Assembly: GCA_003235465.1 (NCBI GenBank)
Contig: QJWD01000281.1
Span: 1 to 6,648, forward strand
Length of the DNA stretch: 6,648 bases
Direction: 5' to 3'
Source of the DNA: Nitrospirota bacterium
Lineage (GTDB): Bacteria > Nitrospinota > Nitrospinia > Nitrospinales > VA-1
The translations under genes were made by a program, and so were the position numbers. Below the pieces are notes generated by a model, which saw only the letters and a list, made by a program, of their open reading frames with translations, searched no databases and was not told the DNA's origin. Shown here in pieces: positions 1 through 6,648 of this stretch (the first letter of the stretch is position 1; each line of letters opens with the position of its first letter).

Positions 1-1389
1 GATGAGCGCGGCGATGACGCCGGTCAGCACGTCGCCGGAACCGGCGGTGGCCATGCCGGGGTTGCCCGTCGGGTTGATGAAAGCCGTGCCGTCGGCGAGG
101 GCGACCACGCTGGCGGCGCCCTTCAGCACCAGGTGCACGCCGTGGCGTTTGGCGAAAGCGGTGGCGGTGCCGATGCGGTCGGCCTGCACCGCGTCGACCG
201 CGAGGCCCGAGAGCCGCGCCATTTCCTTCGGGTGCGGGGTGAGCACCGCTTCGCTTTGCAGGCCGCCGAGGTCGAAACCGGACTCGGCGATGCCGTTCAG
301 CGCGTCGGCGTCGATGACAAGGGGGCAGGGGGCAAGCGGCAGCAGGCGGCCGAGCAGGGCGACGGTCTCGGGCTCGGTGGAGAGGCCGGGGCCGATGGCG
401 ATGGCCGCCTTGCCCGGAATGAGGTCCCTCAGTTGATCGAGCGCCTGAAGGGCGAACGTTCCGCTCGCGGTTTCCTTGAGGGGCACAGTCATCACCTCCA
501 GGGGGTGAAACTCGACGGCGCGCTGCACGCTCTCGGGCAAAGCCAGGGTGACGAGGCCGGCGCCCGAACGCAAGGCCGCAAGCGCGGTGAGGGCCGCCGC
601 GCCGCCCTTGCCGACGCTGCCCGCCACCACCAGCACGTGGCCGAAGGTCCCCTTGTGGGCGTCAGCCGGGCGCGCGGGCAGGGCGATGTCCTGGGCTTCG
701 GGCCGAAAGACGGACACCGGATCATCGGTAACGCACTTTTCCGGCAGGCCAATGTCCACCGTGTGAACCTCGCCCATTTCTCCGGCGGCGGGATGGAGGC
801 AGTGGCTCAGCTTCAGGCAGCCGAGAGCGGCGGTGAGCGTCGCGTGGACGCTGGGCCCAAGCACTTGGCCCGTGTCGGCGTCGAGGCCGGAGGGCAGGTC
901 GACGGCGACGACGAACTTTTCGGCGCTGTTGATGAGGCCGATGGCCTGGGCCTCGAGCCCCCGGGCGGGAGGCTTGAAGCCGGTGCCGAAGATCGCGTCG
1001 ACGATGACGTCGGCGTGGCGGAGGGCATGCAGGTGGCCAGAAAGGCTGGCCTCGTCCACCTCGCGGAGAGTGACGCCCGCCTTGACGGCGATTTCGGCGT
1101 GACGCAACGCATCGGCCTTGAGCGCGGCCGCTTGGCCTAGGAGGAGCACCTCCACCCTGCACCCGGCGGTGAGCAACGCCCGCGCGACCACGAAGCCGTC
1201 GCCGCCGTTGTTGCCCCGGCCCGAGACGACGACGATTCTTTTCCCCTCAAGCTCCGGCACCCGGGCCTGGATCAGCTGGAAAACGCCTCGCCCCGCGTTT
1301 TCCATGAGCACGGCCCCCGGCACGCCGATCTCTTCGATGGCGCGGCGGTCGATGGCTTGCATCTCGCTGGCGGTGACAATGGGTTTCAA
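1..1389 (-). CDS. nnr: Bifunctional NAD(P)H-hydrate epimerase / ADP-dependent (S)-NAD(P)H-hydrate dehydratase, C-terminus cut by window edge
   Basis: Cytosolic metabolite-repair enzyme: the N-terminal domain epimerises hydrated NADH/NADPH (NADHX/NADPHX), and the C-terminal domain dehydrates the S form back to NAD(P)H using ADP. The minus strand reads open for 463 codons to the left edge. The YjeF_N half shows GRGNNGGDGF (residues 58-67), DAIFGTGF (131-138) and DLPSGLDADTG (164-174). The kinase-like dehydratase half starts near HKGTFGHVLVVAG (245-257) and shows IGPGLS (332-337), DADALN (360-365), LTPHPKEM (383-390), KGA (423-425) and the signature NPGMATAGSGDVLTG (443-457), with the expected catalytic Asp at 453. 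Family members have about 490-515 residues, so only the last few dozen are missing. I chose a TTG start because it gives the usual N-terminus (MKPIVTASEMQAIDRRAIEE) and has a Shine-Dalgarno sequence 5 nt upstream; the first in-frame ATG (codon 10) would cut into the conserved helix. It lies 87 bp downstream of the antiporter gene with no visible terminator between them, so co-transcription is likely. Confidence 0.96.
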   Translation of the reverse strand, partial: MKPIVTASEMQAIDRRAIEEIGVPGAVLMENAGRGVFQLIQARVPELEGKRIVVVSGRGNNGGDGFVVARALLTAGCRVEVLLLGQAAALKADALRHAEIAVKAGVTLREVDEASLSGHLHALRHADVIVDAIFGTGFKPPARGLEAQAIGLINSAEKFVVAVDLPSGLDADTGQVLGPSVHATLTAALGCLKLSHCLHPAAGEMGEVHTVDIGLPEKCVTDDPVSVFRPEAQDIALPARPADAHKGTFGHVLVVAGSVGKGGAAALTALAALRSGAGLVTLALPESVQRAVEFHPLEVMTVPLKETASGTFALQALDQLRDLIPGKAAIAIGPGLSTEPETVALLGRLLPLAPCPLVIDADALNGIAESGFDLGGLQSEAVLTPHPKEMARLSGLAVDAVQADRIGTATAFAKRHGVHLVLKGAASVVALADGTAFINPTGNPGMATAGSGDVLTGVIAALI

Positions 1390-1476: not shown

Positions 1477-3273
1477 TCACCTCTTTTCCGGCTCGGTCTT
1501 TTGCAGGGAGAAGCTGATGATGGTGTCGTCGGGCTCGGGGGTGGTGTTGTTCTGCATGAAATCGAAATCGATGCGGCTGTTTTTCTTCAGCAGGATGAGC
1601 GGCTGGCGGTTGTCGCTTGCCGCCTGCAGGAAATCCGCATAGTCGAATTCCTTGGTGAGGCGGGTCTTTTGAAATCGCCAGCCCTCGAAATAGCGGATGA
1701 TCAGTTCCTCATAATGCAGCTTGCCGCCGAAGGCGATCCTGCCGCGCGCCGAGCCGCGCATCTCCTTGCCCGATTCCTTCTCGTGCACCCCGAGCTGGAA
1801 CACCCGGTCGCGCCCGAAGTGGGAGACGAAGGCGTTACACACCAGGGAATTGTAGGCGTCGTTGCCGGTGGCGGCGAACAGGTAGCCCATCTCCGAGAGA
1901 TCGAGGTTTTCCTCGGTGGTGTCGGAGAGAATCTCGCCGTAATGCACAGGCAGGCCGATGAGCCTCGCTTCGCGCAGGCTGTGCCAGGAACTGTCCACCA
2001 GAAGCACCGGGTAGCCGGAGCTTTTCAGTACGCGCGCGAGTTCGATGGTGAAAGGGTAGGAGCCGATGATGAGCACGCCCTCCTGCGCGTGGCTGGCCAG
2101 GCCCAGCCTGCGGGACAGCCACTGGATGCTGAAGCCGTGCAGGACGACGGTGCTGAAAATCACCAGAAACACCAGCGGGCTGAGCAGGTGCGCGTCATCA
2201 AAGCCGTGCTTGGCCATCTCCAGCCCAAACAACCCGGCGACGGACGCGGCGACGATGCCGCGCGGAGCGATCCAGCCGACGAACAGCTTTTCTTTCCACG
2301 TCATGCCGGAGCCAAGGGTGGAGATCCACACCGCGAGCGGCCTGACCAGGAACAGGATGCACAGGATAAACGCCGCCGCCCGCCAGTTCAGGTTGGTCAG
2401 GCTTTGCAGGTTGGTGTCCGCCGTCAGCAGGATGAACACCACCGACACCAGGACCACCGTGATGGTTTCCTTGAACTTGCGCAACTCGTAAATAATGAGC
2501 ATGCCGATGTTGCCCATGGTCATGCCGAGAACGGTGACCGCGAGCAGGCCGATCTCCTCCTGCATCAGGTTGGCGAAAGCGTAGATGGCGAGCACCGTCG
2601 AGAGCACCATCGGCAGCTTGAGGAACTCCGGCACGTGCCCCTTCTCGAACAGGAACTTCAGGATAAAGGCGGCGGCGACGCCGATCAGGATGGCGGCGGC
2701 GATGGCCATCGCCAGCTTCATGACGAGCAGCTCGCCGGTGGCGGCGTGCTCGGTGACGATAGCGAACTGGAACACGAGCACGGCGAGCAGCACGCCCAGG
2801 GGATCGTTGATGATGCCCTCCCACTTGAGCAGGGAGGCGGTGCGCGGCTGCAGCCGCGTTTGCCGGATGAGCGGCATGATGACCGTCGGCCCGGTGACCA
2901 CGAGGATGGATGAAAGCAGGAGAGACACCGGGATGGAGAGGCCGGCCGCCACCCGGCAGGCCAGGTAGCCGAAAAACCACGACAGGGGCAGCCCCAGGCC
3001 GATCAGCTGGCGAAGCGCCTTGCCCGTCGTCTTCAGTTCGTGGAAGCGGAGGTTCAGGCCGCCTTCGAACAGGATGATCGCTACCGCCAGTTTGACGATG
3101 GTTTCGAGCAGGGTGCCGAAATCCCGGCTCGGGCTGATCCAGTCCAGCCCGGGGCCGAGAATGAGGCCGGTGACCGAGAGCAGGACGATCGACGGCAGTT
3201 TGAAGCGCCACGACAGCCACTGCGATACGATGCCCAGAATAAAAACGAGAGCGATGGCCGGGAGAAGTAGCAT
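1477..3273 (-). CDS. CPA1-type cation/proton antiporter with C-terminal TrkA-N-like (RCK) domain
   Basis: Inner-membrane secondary transporter expected to exchange Na+ or K+ for H+, serving pH and cation homeostasis; the cation cannot be read from the sequence. It has 598 residues. Residues 1-385 are a dense run of hydrophobic segments, roughly a dozen helices. FEGGLNL (69-75), VTGPTV (126-131), EGIINDP (152-158, the acidic ND motif of CPA1/NhaP exchangers) and APRGIVAAS (336-344) match Na+/H+ exchanger signatures. Residues about 398-495 form a Rossmann-like TrkA-N domain: beta-strand GVLIIGS, a following helix, VLLVDSS, and FAATGND (466-472). In this domain the GxGxxG loop is replaced by GSYPFT (404-409). 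The last 60 or so residues end in PDDTIISF (581-588), suggestive of a degenerate TrkA-C domain. ATG at 3273 is the first start after an in-frame TGA (3309-3307) and opens directly into helix 1, but has no good Shine-Dalgarno sequence. The upstream leader is structured. Confidence 0.93.
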   Translation of the reverse strand: MLLLPAIALVFILGIVSQWLSWRFKLPSIVLLSVTGLILGPGLDWISPSRDFGTLLETIVKLAVAIILFEGGLNLRFHELKTTGKALRQLIGLGLPLSWFFGYLACRVAAGLSIPVSLLLSSILVVTGPTVIMPLIRQTRLQPRTASLLKWEGIINDPLGVLLAVLVFQFAIVTEHAATGELLVMKLAMAIAAAILIGVAAAFILKFLFEKGHVPEFLKLPMVLSTVLAIYAFANLMQEEIGLLAVTVLGMTMGNIGMLIIYELRKFKETITVVLVSVVFILLTADTNLQSLTNLNWRAAAFILCILFLVRPLAVWISTLGSGMTWKEKLFVGWIAPRGIVAASVAGLFGLEMAKHGFDDAHLLSPLVFLVIFSTVVLHGFSIQWLSRRLGLASHAQEGVLIIGSYPFTIELARVLKSSGYPVLLVDSSWHSLREARLIGLPVHYGEILSDTTEENLDLSEMGYLFAATGNDAYNSLVCNAFVSHFGRDRVFQLGVHEKESGKEMRGSARGRIAFGGKLHYEELIIRYFEGWRFQKTRLTKEFDYADFLQAASDNRQPLILLKKNSRIDFDFMQNNTTPEPDDTIISFSLQKTEPEKR

Positions 3274-3437: not shown

Positions 3438-4058
3438 TTAGACGTAGATCGAGTAGGGGTAGTCGCTCGCGGCTCTTAGCTGAAGTTCCTCGCGCGTCGG
3501 GGCGAGGCCGTGAATCACGGCGAACAGGCAGGGGTCTTTGAAGCCTTTTTTGCGCTTGTCCTCGGGGGAAAGGCGGTCGTACTCTTCTTCCGGGGTGAGG
3601 AACTGGGTGCCGAAGAAATAATTCTTCACGAAACCGTTGAAGTTGATCGTCCGGCCGCCGAGTTCGGGGAGCGCCCTTAACCGTTCTTCGTTGCTGTCGA
3701 GATTGTAGTTGAAGGTGTACCGCGCCAGCGCGTCGTGCAGAAAGGCGAAGTGGTAGGCGTTCATGTGGTACCAGGCGCTTTTGTCGTGGTGCCCGTCCTT
3801 CACTATGGCGAGCGTCGCGGCGAGGGTGCGGAAGCCGCCGGCGCGGTGCGAGGCGGGAAAGAATTTGCGGCCATCCTGGCCCCAGTATTCCGCCGGCTGC
3901 CGCTCGAGGAAGTGCAGGGTTTCTTCCTCTTCCTCGAGAACGCGGGTGAGCAGGTGGGCCGGGTCGAAGGCCTGGTCGAACCCTGGGTCCGGGGAACGGA
4001 GAAAATCGCCGGCCACGGGTTCGTTGTCCGCGTACAGGTTGTTTTTGAATATCAGCAT
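3438..4058 (-). CDS. Hypothetical protein A, paralogue of the protein encoded at 4842-5420
   Basis: I do not recognise a family. The protein has 206 residues and no signal peptide or membrane helix, so it is probably cytosolic. Motifs are WYHMNAYH (96-103), EERLRALPEL (124-133), NYFFGTQFL (146-154) and DKRKKGFKDPCLF (167-179); Cys177 is its only cysteine. An acidic run, EEEEE (42-46), lies in the poorly conserved N-terminal third. From W96 to Y202 it aligns without gaps to protein B with 44 of 107 identities, and the N-termini also match (MLIFKNNLYA versus MLAFKKDIYA). That match favours the ATG at 4058 over the GTG one codon earlier. No Shine-Dalgarno sequence is visible. It has its own candidate promoter (TATAAT at 4145-4140) in the region shared with the divergent peroxidase gene. 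The antiporter gene follows in the same direction after 164 bp. Function unknown. Confidence 0.9.
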   Translation of the reverse strand: MLIFKNNLYADNEPVAGDFLRSPDPGFDQAFDPAHLLTRVLEEEEETLHFLERQPAEYWGQDGRKFFPASHRAGGFRTLAATLAIVKDGHHDKSAWYHMNAYHFAFLHDALARYTFNYNLDSNEERLRALPELGGRTINFNGFVKNYFFGTQFLTPEEEYDRLSPEDKRKKGFKDPCLFAVIHGLAPTREELQLRAASDYPYSIYV

Positions 4059-4074
4059 CACAGGGGGCGGGGAA

Positions 4075-4084
4075 CGGATTCACC
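4075..4084 (+). repeat. First copy of a 10-bp direct repeat in the divergent promoter region
   Basis: CGGATTCACC, repeated exactly at 4194-4203. A close variant, CCGAATCACC, reads on the minus strand at 4130-4121, between the two copies. Three related sites within 130 bp of a promoter region could be regulator sites, but a chance match is possible. Confidence 0.3.
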
Positions 4085-4139
4085 CGCGCTCGTTGCAGGC
4101 GCATGTGTTTTAAGCGCCCCGGTGATTCGGTTCAGGGTT

Positions 4140-4170
4140 ATTATAGCCCATCGGCGTCCAGCCCGGGCAA
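4140..4170 (-). promoter_or_regulatory. Candidate sigma-70 promoter for gene A
   Basis: A perfect -10 hexamer TATAAT lies at 4145-4140 on the minus strand. The best -35 match is TTGCCC at 4170-4165, four of six consensus bases, with a 19-bp spacer that is slightly long. Transcription would start near 4133, giving a 5' UTR of about 75 nt before the ATG of gene A. The same bases read TATTAT (4139-4144) on the plus strand, but no -35 is visible for the peroxidase gene in that direction. Confidence 0.5.
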
Positions 4171-4181
4171 CTATTTGCCCG
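4164..4181. promoter_or_regulatory. Operator-like dyad over the -35 of the gene A promoter
   Basis: A perfect inverted repeat, CGGGCAA-CTAT-TTGCCCG, with 7-bp arms and a 4-bp spacer. The left arm contains the candidate -35 hexamer of the gene A promoter. An 18-bp dyad at this position is typical of a binding site for a dimeric repressor or activator. No regulator gene is in the window, so the ligand and sense of control are unknown. Confidence 0.4.
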
Positions 4182-4193
4182 CCGCCGGTTCGC

Positions 4194-4203
4194 CGGATTC
4201 ACC
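4194..4203 (+). repeat. Second copy of the 10-bp direct repeat
   Basis: CGGATTCACC, identical to 4075-4084, 62 bp upstream of the peroxidase start. Its first three bases overlap a small CCGG-TTCG-CCGG hairpin at 4185-4196. Confidence 0.3.
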
Positions 4204-4254
4204 GTCGCCTGCCGCCATGCTGGGCGGATTTGCACGAAAAATTTCTCGGTTCCC

Positions 4255-4260
4255 GGGAGG
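4255..4260 (+). promoter_or_regulatory. Ribosome binding site of the peroxidase gene
   Basis: GGGAGG, 5 nt before the ATG at 4266. The reading frame stays open far upstream, antisense to gene A, so this site together with the start of family homology fixes the true start. Confidence 0.75.
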
Positions 4261-4265
4261 CCGCC

Positions 4266-4838
4266 ATGCCCTCAGTCCACGATTTTGATTTCAAAACCCT
4301 GGCCGGTGAAGCGGTGGCGGGTGAGAGCTACCGTGGCCGGGTGCTCCTGATCGTCAACGTCGCCTCCCGCTGCGGCTTCACGCCGCAATACCAGGCCCTG
4401 CAAAAACTGCACGAGCGCTACCAGGCGCGAGGGTTGAGCGTGATCGCGTTTCCCTCGAATGATTTCGGCGACCAGGAGCCGGGGGAGGCGGGCGAGATCG
4501 CCGCCTTCTGTGAGCGGCGTTTTGGCGTCGGCTTCGACATGATGGCTAAGGTCCACATCCGAACGGGCGACCAGGAGCCGCTCTACCGCTATCTCGAATC
4601 GGCCGGGCTCGAGGCCCTGAGGGCAGGCGGTCTCAAGGCGCGCCTGTTCGAGGCCTTCAAGCGGTTTTATAATTTCGTGCGCGGAAAACCCATGCCGGCC
4701 GGCAACCAGGTGAGCTGGAACTTCCACAAATTCCTCGTCGACCGCGCGGGAAAGCCCGTCGCCCACTTCGCCTCGGTGGTGGAGCCGGACGATCCGGCGC
4801 TCATCGCCCTCCTGGAACAGGAGCTTGCCAAGCCCTGA
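4266..4838 (+). CDS. Glutathione peroxidase family protein (BtuE-like thiol peroxidase)
   Basis: A cytosolic thioredoxin-fold peroxidase of 190 residues that reduces hydrogen peroxide or organic hydroperoxides. No signal peptide is visible. The catalytic tetrad is complete: Cys36 in NVASRCGFTPQY (31-42), Gln70 in GDQEPG (68-73), and Trp151-Asn152 in SWNFHKFLVD (150-159). Cys rather than selenocysteine is used. Cys82 (AFCERRFGVGF) aligns with the Cys of the TYCTTTWGVTF segment of E. coli BtuE, recalled from memory, the position of the resolving cysteine in thioredoxin-dependent members; thioredoxin may therefore be the real reductant. The insert near residues 121-148 also follows BtuE. The normally conserved FPCNQF is FPSNDF here (62-67). 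It is the only plus-strand gene, divergent from gene A, and its stop is 3 bp from that of gene B. I leave the symbol blank because btuE versus generic gpx cannot be settled. Confidence 0.95.
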   Translation: MPSVHDFDFKTLAGEAVAGESYRGRVLLIVNVASRCGFTPQYQALQKLHERYQARGLSVIAFPSNDFGDQEPGEAGEIAAFCERRFGVGFDMMAKVHIRTGDQEPLYRYLESAGLEALRAGGLKARLFEAFKRFYNFVRGKPMPAGNQVSWNFHKFLVDRAGKPVAHFASVVEPDDPALIALLEQELAKP

Positions 4839-4841
4839 TGG

Positions 4842-5420
4842 CTAGCGCGGGTAGGGGTTGCCGGCGAGCACCTTGAGGGCCACCTCCTCCTCGGAGGGGA
4901 TGAACTTGTTTACCACCCCGAACAGGCAGGGGTCAGTGAACCCGGCCTGCTCCTTGTCATCCCGGCTCATGGCGTTCAGGCGTTCGGGTGCGATGAGAAA
5001 CGCGGTGTTGTCGAAATACTCCTCGAGAAACGCTTCGAAGGGCAGCGCCTCGCCCTCGAGATCGGGCAGCATCCGCATGCGTTCCTCGCGCGATCCGTAG
5101 CTGTAATCCTCCACCAAACCGCTCAGGCTGTCGTAGATGTAGCAGAGATGGTAGGCGTTCATGCCGTACCAGACATCGCGGCGCACCAGGCCCTCGAGCA
5201 GGCGCTTGGAGAGGTTGTTCAGGAGGGGCAGGGGCGCGAAGCGGGAGGCGTGCGGAAACAGCGTCTGGTAGCGCACGAGGTCCTCCTCGGTGAGGCGGAC
5301 GAGCAGCCCGTTCATGATGCCGCGGTCGGCGGAAAGCGCGTGCAGGATGAACGGGTAGGGAGAAAACCCCTGGGCGCAGGCGGCGGGCGGCGCATAAATG
5401 TCCTTCTTGAACGCCAGCAT
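4842..5420 (-). CDS. Hypothetical protein B, paralogue of protein A, coupled to glgP
   Basis: I do not recognise a family. The protein has 192 residues and no signal peptide or membrane helix, so it is probably cytosolic. Motifs shared with protein A are WYGMNAYH (84-91), EERMRMLPDL (112-121), EYFDNTAFL (134-142) and DKEQAGFTDPCLF (155-167), all at the same relative spacing. The N-terminal third differs by about 12 residues in length between the two. The cysteines are C15, C93 and C165; only C165 is conserved in A. The start lies 7 nt after the glgP stop with no Shine-Dalgarno sequence at a usable distance (the nearest GAGG is 18 nt away), which suggests translational coupling to glgP. The link to glycogen phosphorylase hints at a role in glycogen use, such as a regulator or accessory protein, but this is context only. 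Confidence 0.92.
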   Translation of the reverse strand: MLAFKKDIYAPPAACAQGFSPYPFILHALSADRGIMNGLLVRLTEEDLVRYQTLFPHASRFAPLPLLNNLSKRLLEGLVRRDVWYGMNAYHLCYIYDSLSGLVEDYSYGSREERMRMLPDLEGEALPFEAFLEEYFDNTAFLIAPERLNAMSRDDKEQAGFTDPCLFGVVNKFIPSEEEVALKVLAGNPYPR

Positions 5421-5427
5421 GGAAAAA

Positions 5428-6648
5428 TCAGGCGCCGGCCTCGGGCGGCGGAATGGGGCAGGGCTGAGTGCGCCAGATGTCGCGCGCGTAATCGTAGATG
5501 GTGCGGTCGCTGGAAAACTTGCCCATGTTCGCCGCGTTGATCACGGATTTTTCCGTCCAGCGCCGGGTCCTTAGAAATTCCTCCTCGATGTCCCGGTGCG
5601 CCCGGCAGTAGTCGGCGAAATCGGCGAGGACCATGAAGCGGTCGCCGCCGTCGAGCAGGCTGTCGACGAGGCCATGGAACAGGTCGCGCGCTTCCGGGTT
5701 GAAAAAACCCTCGCGCACCATGTCGATGGCCTGCTTGAGCTCGGGGCTGGCGTGGTAGATGTCGCGCGGGCGGTAATGGTCGCGCTGCATCTCAGCCACC
5801 TCGTCGGACTTGAGCCCGAAGATGAAGATGTTGTCCTCGCCCACCTCCTCGAGGATCTCGATGTTGGCGCCGTCGAGGGTGCCGAGGGTGAGCGCGCCGT
5901 TGAGCGCGAGCTTCATGTTGCCCGTCCCCGAGGCCTCCATGCCGGCGGTGGAGATTTGCTGCGACAGGTCCGCCGCTGGAATGATGCGCTTGGCCATCGA
6001 CACGGAATAGTTGGGCAGGAACAGCACCTTGAGGCGGCCCTGCATGTCCGGATCGCGCTCGATGACGCGGCCGACGCTGTTGATGAGCTTGATGATGCGC
6101 TTCGCCATCGCGTAACCGGGTGCGGCCTTGCCGGCGAACAGGACGGTGCGCGGCAAAGGGTCGCCCGAGGGGTTCTTCTTGATGCGCGCGTAGAGCACGA
6201 TCACATGCAGGATGTTCAGCAGCTGGCGCTTGTATTCGTGGACGCGCTTAATGTGGACGTCAAACAGCGATTCCGGGTCCAGGGTGACGCCGTGTTCGCG
6301 CTTGACGAAATGCGCGAGTTCTTTTTTGTTTTCGAGCTTGATGGCGCGCCAGCGGTCGAGGAACGCGGCGTCGTTTTTGAGCGGGACGAGCTTTTTCAAG
6401 CGATACAGGTTTCGCAGCCAGTCGTCGCCGATGGTCTCGTCGATGAATCCGGCGAGCCTGGGGTTGCAGAGTTTCAGCCAGGTGCGCTGCGAGATGCCGT
6501 TGGTCTTGTTCTGGATTTTGCTGGGGTACATTTCATCGAAATCGCGAAACAGGCTCTTTCTCAGGATGTGCGTGTGCAGCGCCGCGACGCCGTTGACCGC
6601 GTGGCTGCCGACGATGGACAGCTGCGGCATGCGCACGCTCTTGACCGG
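5428..6648 (-). CDS. glgP: Glycogen/alpha-glucan phosphorylase, C-terminal half, N-terminus cut by window edge
   Basis: A cytosolic PLP enzyme that releases glucose 1-phosphate from the non-reducing ends of glycogen by phosphorolysis. The 406 visible residues are about half of a typical phosphorylase of 800-850. Visible family features are GSHAVNGVAALH (visible residues 14-25), NKTNGISQRTWL (47-58), HIKRVHEYKRQ (132-142), FLPNYSVSMAKR (210-221) and the signature EASGTGNMKLALNGALTLGT (238-257), whose Lys246 (codon 5913-5911) is the expected PLP-binding lysine. The end, ANMGKFSSDRTIYDYARDIW (373-392), is the standard C-terminus. A short proline-rich tail (PCPIPPPEAGA) follows. The frame runs open through the right edge, so the GTG and ATG near 6636 and 6630 are internal. 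Gene B follows after 7 nt, so the two almost certainly share a transcript. Confidence 0.97.
   Translation of the reverse strand, partial: PVKSVRMPQLSIVGSHAVNGVAALHTHILRKSLFRDFDEMYPSKIQNKTNGISQRTWLKLCNPRLAGFIDETIGDDWLRNLYRLKKLVPLKNDAAFLDRWRAIKLENKKELAHFVKREHGVTLDPESLFDVHIKRVHEYKRQLLNILHVIVLYARIKKNPSGDPLPRTVLFAGKAAPGYAMAKRIIKLINSVGRVIERDPDMQGRLKVLFLPNYSVSMAKRIIPAADLSQQISTAGMEASGTGNMKLALNGALTLGTLDGANIEILEEVGEDNIFIFGLKSDEVAEMQRDHYRPRDIYHASPELKQAIDMVREGFFNPEARDLFHGLVDSLLDGGDRFMVLADFADYCRAHRDIEEEFLRTRRWTEKSVINAANMGKFSSDRTIYDYARDIWRTQPCPIPPPEAGA

Follow-up and report, generated by a model that had tools for sequence, protein, structure and literature searches.

The window analysed here is a stretch of 6,648 nt from contig QJWD01000281.1 of a Nitrospirota bacterium (GenBank assembly GCA_003235465.1). 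Its minus strand carries the C-terminal part of glgP (5428..6648; PF00343, E 7e-179), directly upstream of the ORF encoding protein B (4842..5420, minus strand, 192 aa), which starts 7 bases past the glgP stop. A glutathione peroxidase (GPx) gene on the plus strand (4266..4838; PF00255, E 6.5e-35) lies between B and the gene for protein A (3438..4058, minus strand, 206 aa), an all-helical orphan protein recognised from its ORF, its homologues and an AlphaFold2 model. Downstream of A, the minus strand encodes a cation/proton antiporter with a TrkA_N domain (1477..3273; PF00999 and PF02254) and the N-terminal part of nnrDE (NAD(P)H-hydrate epimerase/dehydratase), which is cut by the window end (1..1389, minus strand; PF03853 and PF01256, and NCBIfam). 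No RNA element was detected in the window by Rfam at the gathering score. The coordinates and frames that the sequence-only reading had assigned to A and B were correct; the start codon of A is the ATG at 4058, and the ORF list opens one codon sooner, at a GTG. A Shine-Dalgarno-like 4-mer is rare 5' of the A/B genes (5 of 37; the starts in the window are at 4058 and 5420), compared with 64 of 127 among ORFs of ribosomal operons and 220 of 647 among the other ORFs compared, the starts being unrefined in both comparison sets.

The sequence-only reading had presented A and B as paralogues of an undescribed family, on the basis of a gapless alignment from W96/W84 to Y202/Y190 with 44 identities in 107 positions. 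This count was reproduced exactly, and 2000 shuffles of the B segment compared with A gave a mean of only 6.9 identities and a maximum of 16. BLASTP of A against B showed 62 identities over the whole length of 202 positions (E 5e-34), and the N-terminal likeness (ML-FK----YA) was also confirmed. As judged from these alignments, we concluded that A and B are paralogues.

Protein searches returned 15 matches with B (B itself counted), 71 homologues with A and 367 proteins with the mixed profile. Among the matches listed (120 of the 367 for the mixed profile), each of the ten names that give an organism is Nitrospinae, Nitrospinaceae, Nitrospina or Nitromaritima. Long paralogues emerged from searches of genomes, C/D (284-325 aa) and E (244-336 aa, with start codons unrefined). 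Alignment of the A/B profile with the C/D profile by hhalign gave a probability of 98.7 and an E value of 1.7e-16. In a tree of 60 proteins, from which E was left out, the long paralogues form one clade (100/100) inside which C and D separate poorly, B is a clade of 22 proteins (96/100), A is a weaker group of 16 (90/44), and the second copies of genomes G012 and G013 fall apart from both A and B. On these comparisons, A and B are two branches of a larger family consisting of A, B, the C/D paralogues of about 290 aa and E, and the family has at least four branches.

To assess the range of the family, genomes related to Nitrospinaceae bacterium bin1391 were searched with the mixed profile. In the class of this bacterium 66 of 77 genomes match, with 1 to 5 matches per genome, and the phylum-level search returned the same 77 genomes, again 66 of them with the family. 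Two of the 66, G068 and G070, have distant partial matches only: the partial homologue of G068 lies at a contig end after an ORF that resembles PEP/pyruvate kinase by eye, and that of G070 is in a reading frame whose start is unrelated, on a short contig that also carries an integrase-like ORF (likewise by eye). The genomes without a match are G003-G005, G069 and G071-G077. The same profile gave no match in 310 further genomes, which are a sample of near phyla and not of all bacteria, and which are placed outside the class by inference, since the same 77 genomes were returned for class and for phylum; among all 387 relatives the same 66 are thus positive. The C/D profile matched 63 of the 387 genomes, all within the 77. 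A scan of genome contigs with B gave two loci and, with the mixed-profile protein search, provides wider evidence on the range. The family is old within its class and, as far as searched, confined to it. Three other associations were considered and rejected. A phage or plasmid origin was not borne out by tblastn with B against phage and plasmid records, which gave no match. A tie to nitrite oxidation was sought through EB_dh (PF09459), a loose proxy; it matches 73 of the 77 genomes, including 9 of the 11 family-negative ones, and therefore does not separate genomes with and without the family. Sigma-54, considered as a partner, gives no separation either, because it matches 70 of the 77 genomes, including 10 of the 11 family-negative ones.

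Neither Pfam nor NCBIfam contains a family matching A or B at E values up to 1, and nothing in these two libraries exceeded a curated cut-off for A, B, C or E. Pfam searches with 29 members of alignment A2 (A, B and C/D) yielded scattered weak matches, each in 1-3 members (best E 0.00052), and those with five E proteins and one C protein yielded one weak sub-cut-off match (E 0.019); NCBIfam gave none for C and E. When A, B, one C and one E were compared with PADLOC (anti-phage defence) and PHROGs, the former gave no match and the latter a single weak one, for E (E 0.075). Among PDB sequences, the best match of the A1 profile had an E value of 0.27, and the A3 profile had one match, to vinorine synthase (E 0.014 over 39 positions). 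The claim that A and B belong to no known family therefore holds against Pfam, NCBIfam, PADLOC, PHROGs and PDB sequences. The AlphaFold2 model of A is all-helical (pLDDT 81.7, pTM 0.82). Structure prediction followed by a fold search, which had been proposed as a check, provided no usable match in the PDB: no structural match of the A model was significant there, and the best E value against a viral structure library was 1.3. Absence from such match lists does not show a new fold. Among the papers listed in literature searches, no title or abstract opening names such a family, and passages of PMC10839748 and PMC3578206 selected by term are silent on it. The family is unannotated in the libraries used; its novelty is absence from them, which is not the same as a demonstrated new fold or function. 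Being real, old in the class, class-restricted as far as searched and unannotated, the family was rightly singled out by the sequence-only reading. Lineage-restricted orphan families of hypothetical proteins are a known kind, and the present family resembles them in its occurrence in one class only, its lack of annotation and its several paralogues; it differs in having several old branches, recurrent neighbourhoods and one N-terminal peptide in all branches.

All branches share the same layout, in which the start MLxFxK[N/D]I is followed by a variable linker and a common core. In the window, residues 1-9 are MLIFKNNLY in A (4032..4058, minus strand) and MLAFKKDIY in B (5394..5420, minus strand), and the core comprises residues 94-155 of A (3594..3779, minus strand; WYHMNAYH ... 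D109 ... Y118 ... NYFFGTQF) and residues 82-143 of B (4992..5177, minus strand). In an alignment of 80 rows drawn from all branches, conservation of M, L, F and I in the peptide is 97-99%, and the linker of about 15 residues after the peptide is not conserved. Mean identity between branches is 48-79% for residues 1-9, 4-37% for the linker (10-24), 15-23% for the helices of residues 25-93, 23-39% for the core (94-155) and 10-38% after the core. Part of the variation of the peptide is systematic: A/B have K5-N7-Y9, and C/D and E have A5-D7-S/T/G9. Synonymous changes at codons 2, 4 and 8 are seen in all branches, thus selection acts on the protein. In the model of A, which was built with 40 sequences, the pLDDT of this peptide is about 50. 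The peak hydropathy over 19 residues is 0.59 for A and 0.99 for B, and no row of the 80 exceeds 1.6; A and B are accordingly predicted to be small soluble proteins in which no hydrophobic stretch reaches the length of a membrane segment.

The residues kept (A numbering) are N100 (76 of 80 rows), D109 (76 of 80), Y118 (80 of 80), F153 (99%), L194 (97%) and Y202 (96%). Membership of the family is recognised for A, B, C, D and E by the MLxFxK[N/D]I start together with N100, D109 and Y118 in the helical core. Within A1, the alignment of 40 A/B rows, W96, Y102, H103, D109, Y118, F148, F153 and K168 are present in every row, and N100 in all but one. Such a cluster could be read as the active site of a small enzyme family, built from N100, Y102, H103, D109, Y118 and K168, and its near-invariance in A/B is what speaks for this. 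The other branches argue against it. Position 103 is His in A, in B and in 19 of 20 E rows, but in C/D it is Tyr in 19 of the 20 rows and Phe in the remaining one. K168 and W96 are each kept in 1 of 20 E rows, W96 being present in all 60 rows of A, B and C/D. These losses weaken the case for a common catalytic site, an all-branch site would shrink to N, D and Y, and we regard an enzymatic role as very unlikely. No set of metal ligands common to all branches is kept in the 80 rows. HPt domains, whose hallmark is a phosphorylatable His on a four-helix bundle, gave weak structural matches only (8rqj_A and 2ooc_B); in the family, the His at position 103 is replaced by Tyr or Phe in C/D.

A has one cysteine and B has three, so the earlier statement that the conserved Cys is the only one in A was accurate. 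This Cys is indeed present in 35 of the 40 rows of A1, but it is not kept across the whole family: in the 80-row set it is found in 6 of 16 A, 15 of 22 B, neither of the two second copies of G012 and G013, and none of 40 long paralogues. Since it is patchy in A/B and missing from the long paralogues, it is not family-defining, and a family-wide conserved redox Cys is ruled out by the latter count. The strict spacing that the sequence-only reading had taken as the mark of a constrained fold was borne out; the functional site that it had also proposed is possible, although H103, W96, K168 and the Cys are not family-wide.

A/B-type matches occur in 54 genomes, two in 36 of them and one in 18 (hand count). 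In the 36 two-copy genomes, which include G034 and G064, where the second copy is a fragment, both copies are always on the same contig and the same strand. One lineage has B alone, in all four members tested. In G016, G020, G021 and G022, from a lineage with a single short copy, the contig of that copy also carries a second long copy, some 15 kb away. The GPx gene adjoins A in 10 of the 22 A/B loci outside the window and was not found in the other 12, and it is therefore a context gene and not a member of the family.

As B begins 7 bases past glgP in the window, B, and with it A, might be accessories of glycogen storage that regulate or anchor glycogen phosphorylase or UGP. Nitrospina gracilis stores glycogen, according to the available part of PMC3578206. 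Of the 54 genomes with A/B-type genes, 35 match glgP strongly (E at or below 1e-80), and an A/B-type gene directly follows glgP in 14 of these 35 (in 13 no more than 60 bases past the end of the match, in G007 at 192), the glgP-adjacent cases being scattered over distant parts of the B clade; UGP is moreover the divergent neighbour in 20 of 23 A/B loci. On the other side, the other 21 of the 35 have glgP and the A/B-type genes on different contigs. The remaining 19 of the 54 genomes lack a strong match: in six (G006, G010 and G012-G015) only a phosphorylase of a more distant type is matched, and weakly, and in 13, e.g. G011 (5.3 Mb) and G048 (3.4 Mb), no phosphorylase of any kind is matched, although some genomes may be incomplete. 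Furthermore, family-negative genomes such as G004, G005 and G072 carry glgP, and glgP is absent from the recurrent genes of the examined C/D and E loci. The genomes negative for glgP and those with glgP elsewhere weaken a role in glycogen metabolism, which we consider quite unlikely. Thus the survey of the glgP neighbourhood, suggested by the sequence-only reading, established a real link in 14 of 54 genomes but not a general one.

Other genes are steadier neighbours than glgP. Across 23 A/B loci (the window, L001, L002 and L037-L056; BLAST clusters were each named from one representative), nnrDE is present in 21, in addition to the divergent UGP, and tsaE, lptC, lptA, lptB and rpoN are each present in 18; several loci without these neighbours are cut by contig or stretch ends. 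The C/D loci are marked by HflK/HflC and TrkA (12 of 20), with ABC exporters in 4 and a lytic transglycosylase in 3 of the 20, and the E loci by nadE (13 of 20), some of them also with epimerase, WbqC, glycosyltransferase and two-partner-secretion genes. No gene neighbour common to all branches was found. Two further proteins recur in these loci. One, near C/D in 9 of 20 loci (e.g. L075:6093-7163, minus strand), is a radical-SAM protein some 356 aa long; its SPASM domain scores 30.5 against a cut-off of 27 (NCBIfam TIGR04085), and the equivalog models shown, many of them for peptide maturases, score far below their cut-offs. The other, near E in 13 of 20 loci (e.g. L085:8943-9545, minus strand), is unannotated and mostly about 145 aa long, and the one member scanned had no Pfam or NCBIfam match.

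The recurrence of nnrDE with A/B, nadE with E and trkA with C/D points to NAD in the loci of three branches. TrkA binds NAD(H), the nnrDE product repairs hydrated NAD(P)H, and nadE encodes NAD synthase. The strongest rival to the adaptor role proposed below is therefore that the proteins bind a nicotinamide nucleotide: the aromatic and polar core would bind NAD(P)(H) or a relative and report the redox state to the neighbouring systems, and the TrkA_N-domain antiporter adjoining A in the window agrees with this. However, the pattern was spotted post hoc and may reflect the chance recurrence of some pathway. In addition, operons of the nnrE-tsaE or lptCAB-rpoN kind are widespread among other bacteria, so that A/B may simply lie next to one, and the all-helical model of A suggests that there is no Rossmann fold. 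We hold this role to be unlikely. The same neighbours also raise the question of whether the proteins are housekeeping factors of the cell envelope, linked to the genes for LPS transport (lptC-lptA-lptB-rpoN near A/B), K+ transport (trkA with hflKC near C/D, whose loci in some cases have ABC exporters or a lytic transglycosylase) and surface polysaccharide (the epimerase, WbqC, glycosyltransferase and two-partner-secretion genes of some E loci). Since these neighbours vary by branch, with none found common to all, and hydropathy gives no membrane segment, such a function is very unlikely.

The reading that we favour, tentatively and at less than even chance, is that the family members are non-enzymatic helical adaptors or scaffolds that dock through the N-terminal peptide, with A and B acting as a pair. 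The N-terminal end is conserved yet poorly ordered in the model, which fits a docking peptide; it would dock onto a partner that the branches have in common, or into a groove of another family member, and the divergent helices outside the core could give each branch its own second partner. We infer docking from the pattern of conservation, and the peptide may instead pack against its own domain, a placement that a model from 40 sequences could miss. A and B would work as a hetero-oligomer, as suggested by their being neighbours in every searched genome with two short copies; the 18 of 54 genomes with one short copy indicate that the pair is not obligatory. A conserved short peptide, a variable linker and a folded domain are also the features of proteins with N-terminal targeting or encapsulation peptides. 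The A-E family has the same layout, although no compartment shell or partner is known for it. Codon bias gave no consistent sign of high expression: 13 family genes from four genomes ranked from 0.17 to 1.0 among their neighbours, in a test of low power because ribosomal genes hardly differ from the background in those four genomes.

According to PMC10839748, the phylum Nitrospinota includes those known nitrite oxidizers that are most abundant in the marine water column, and the nitrite-oxidizer role belongs to the class Nitrospinia. The class searched here is probably Nitrospinia. A more far-reaching proposal, which we consider rather unlikely, is that the family is a class-defining module of the Nitrospina lineage, in which old paralogues of a previously unseen helical fold would all dock via one peptide onto a common partner and form a lineage-specific assembly or signalling scaffold that connects storage carbon with NAD metabolism and with functions of the envelope or K+ in these ocean nitrite oxidizers. 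That a family carried by most genomes of the class lacks annotation leaves a clear gap in the knowledge of these cells. The family offers a marker gene for the class and poses a biochemical question, namely what the common N-terminal peptide binds.
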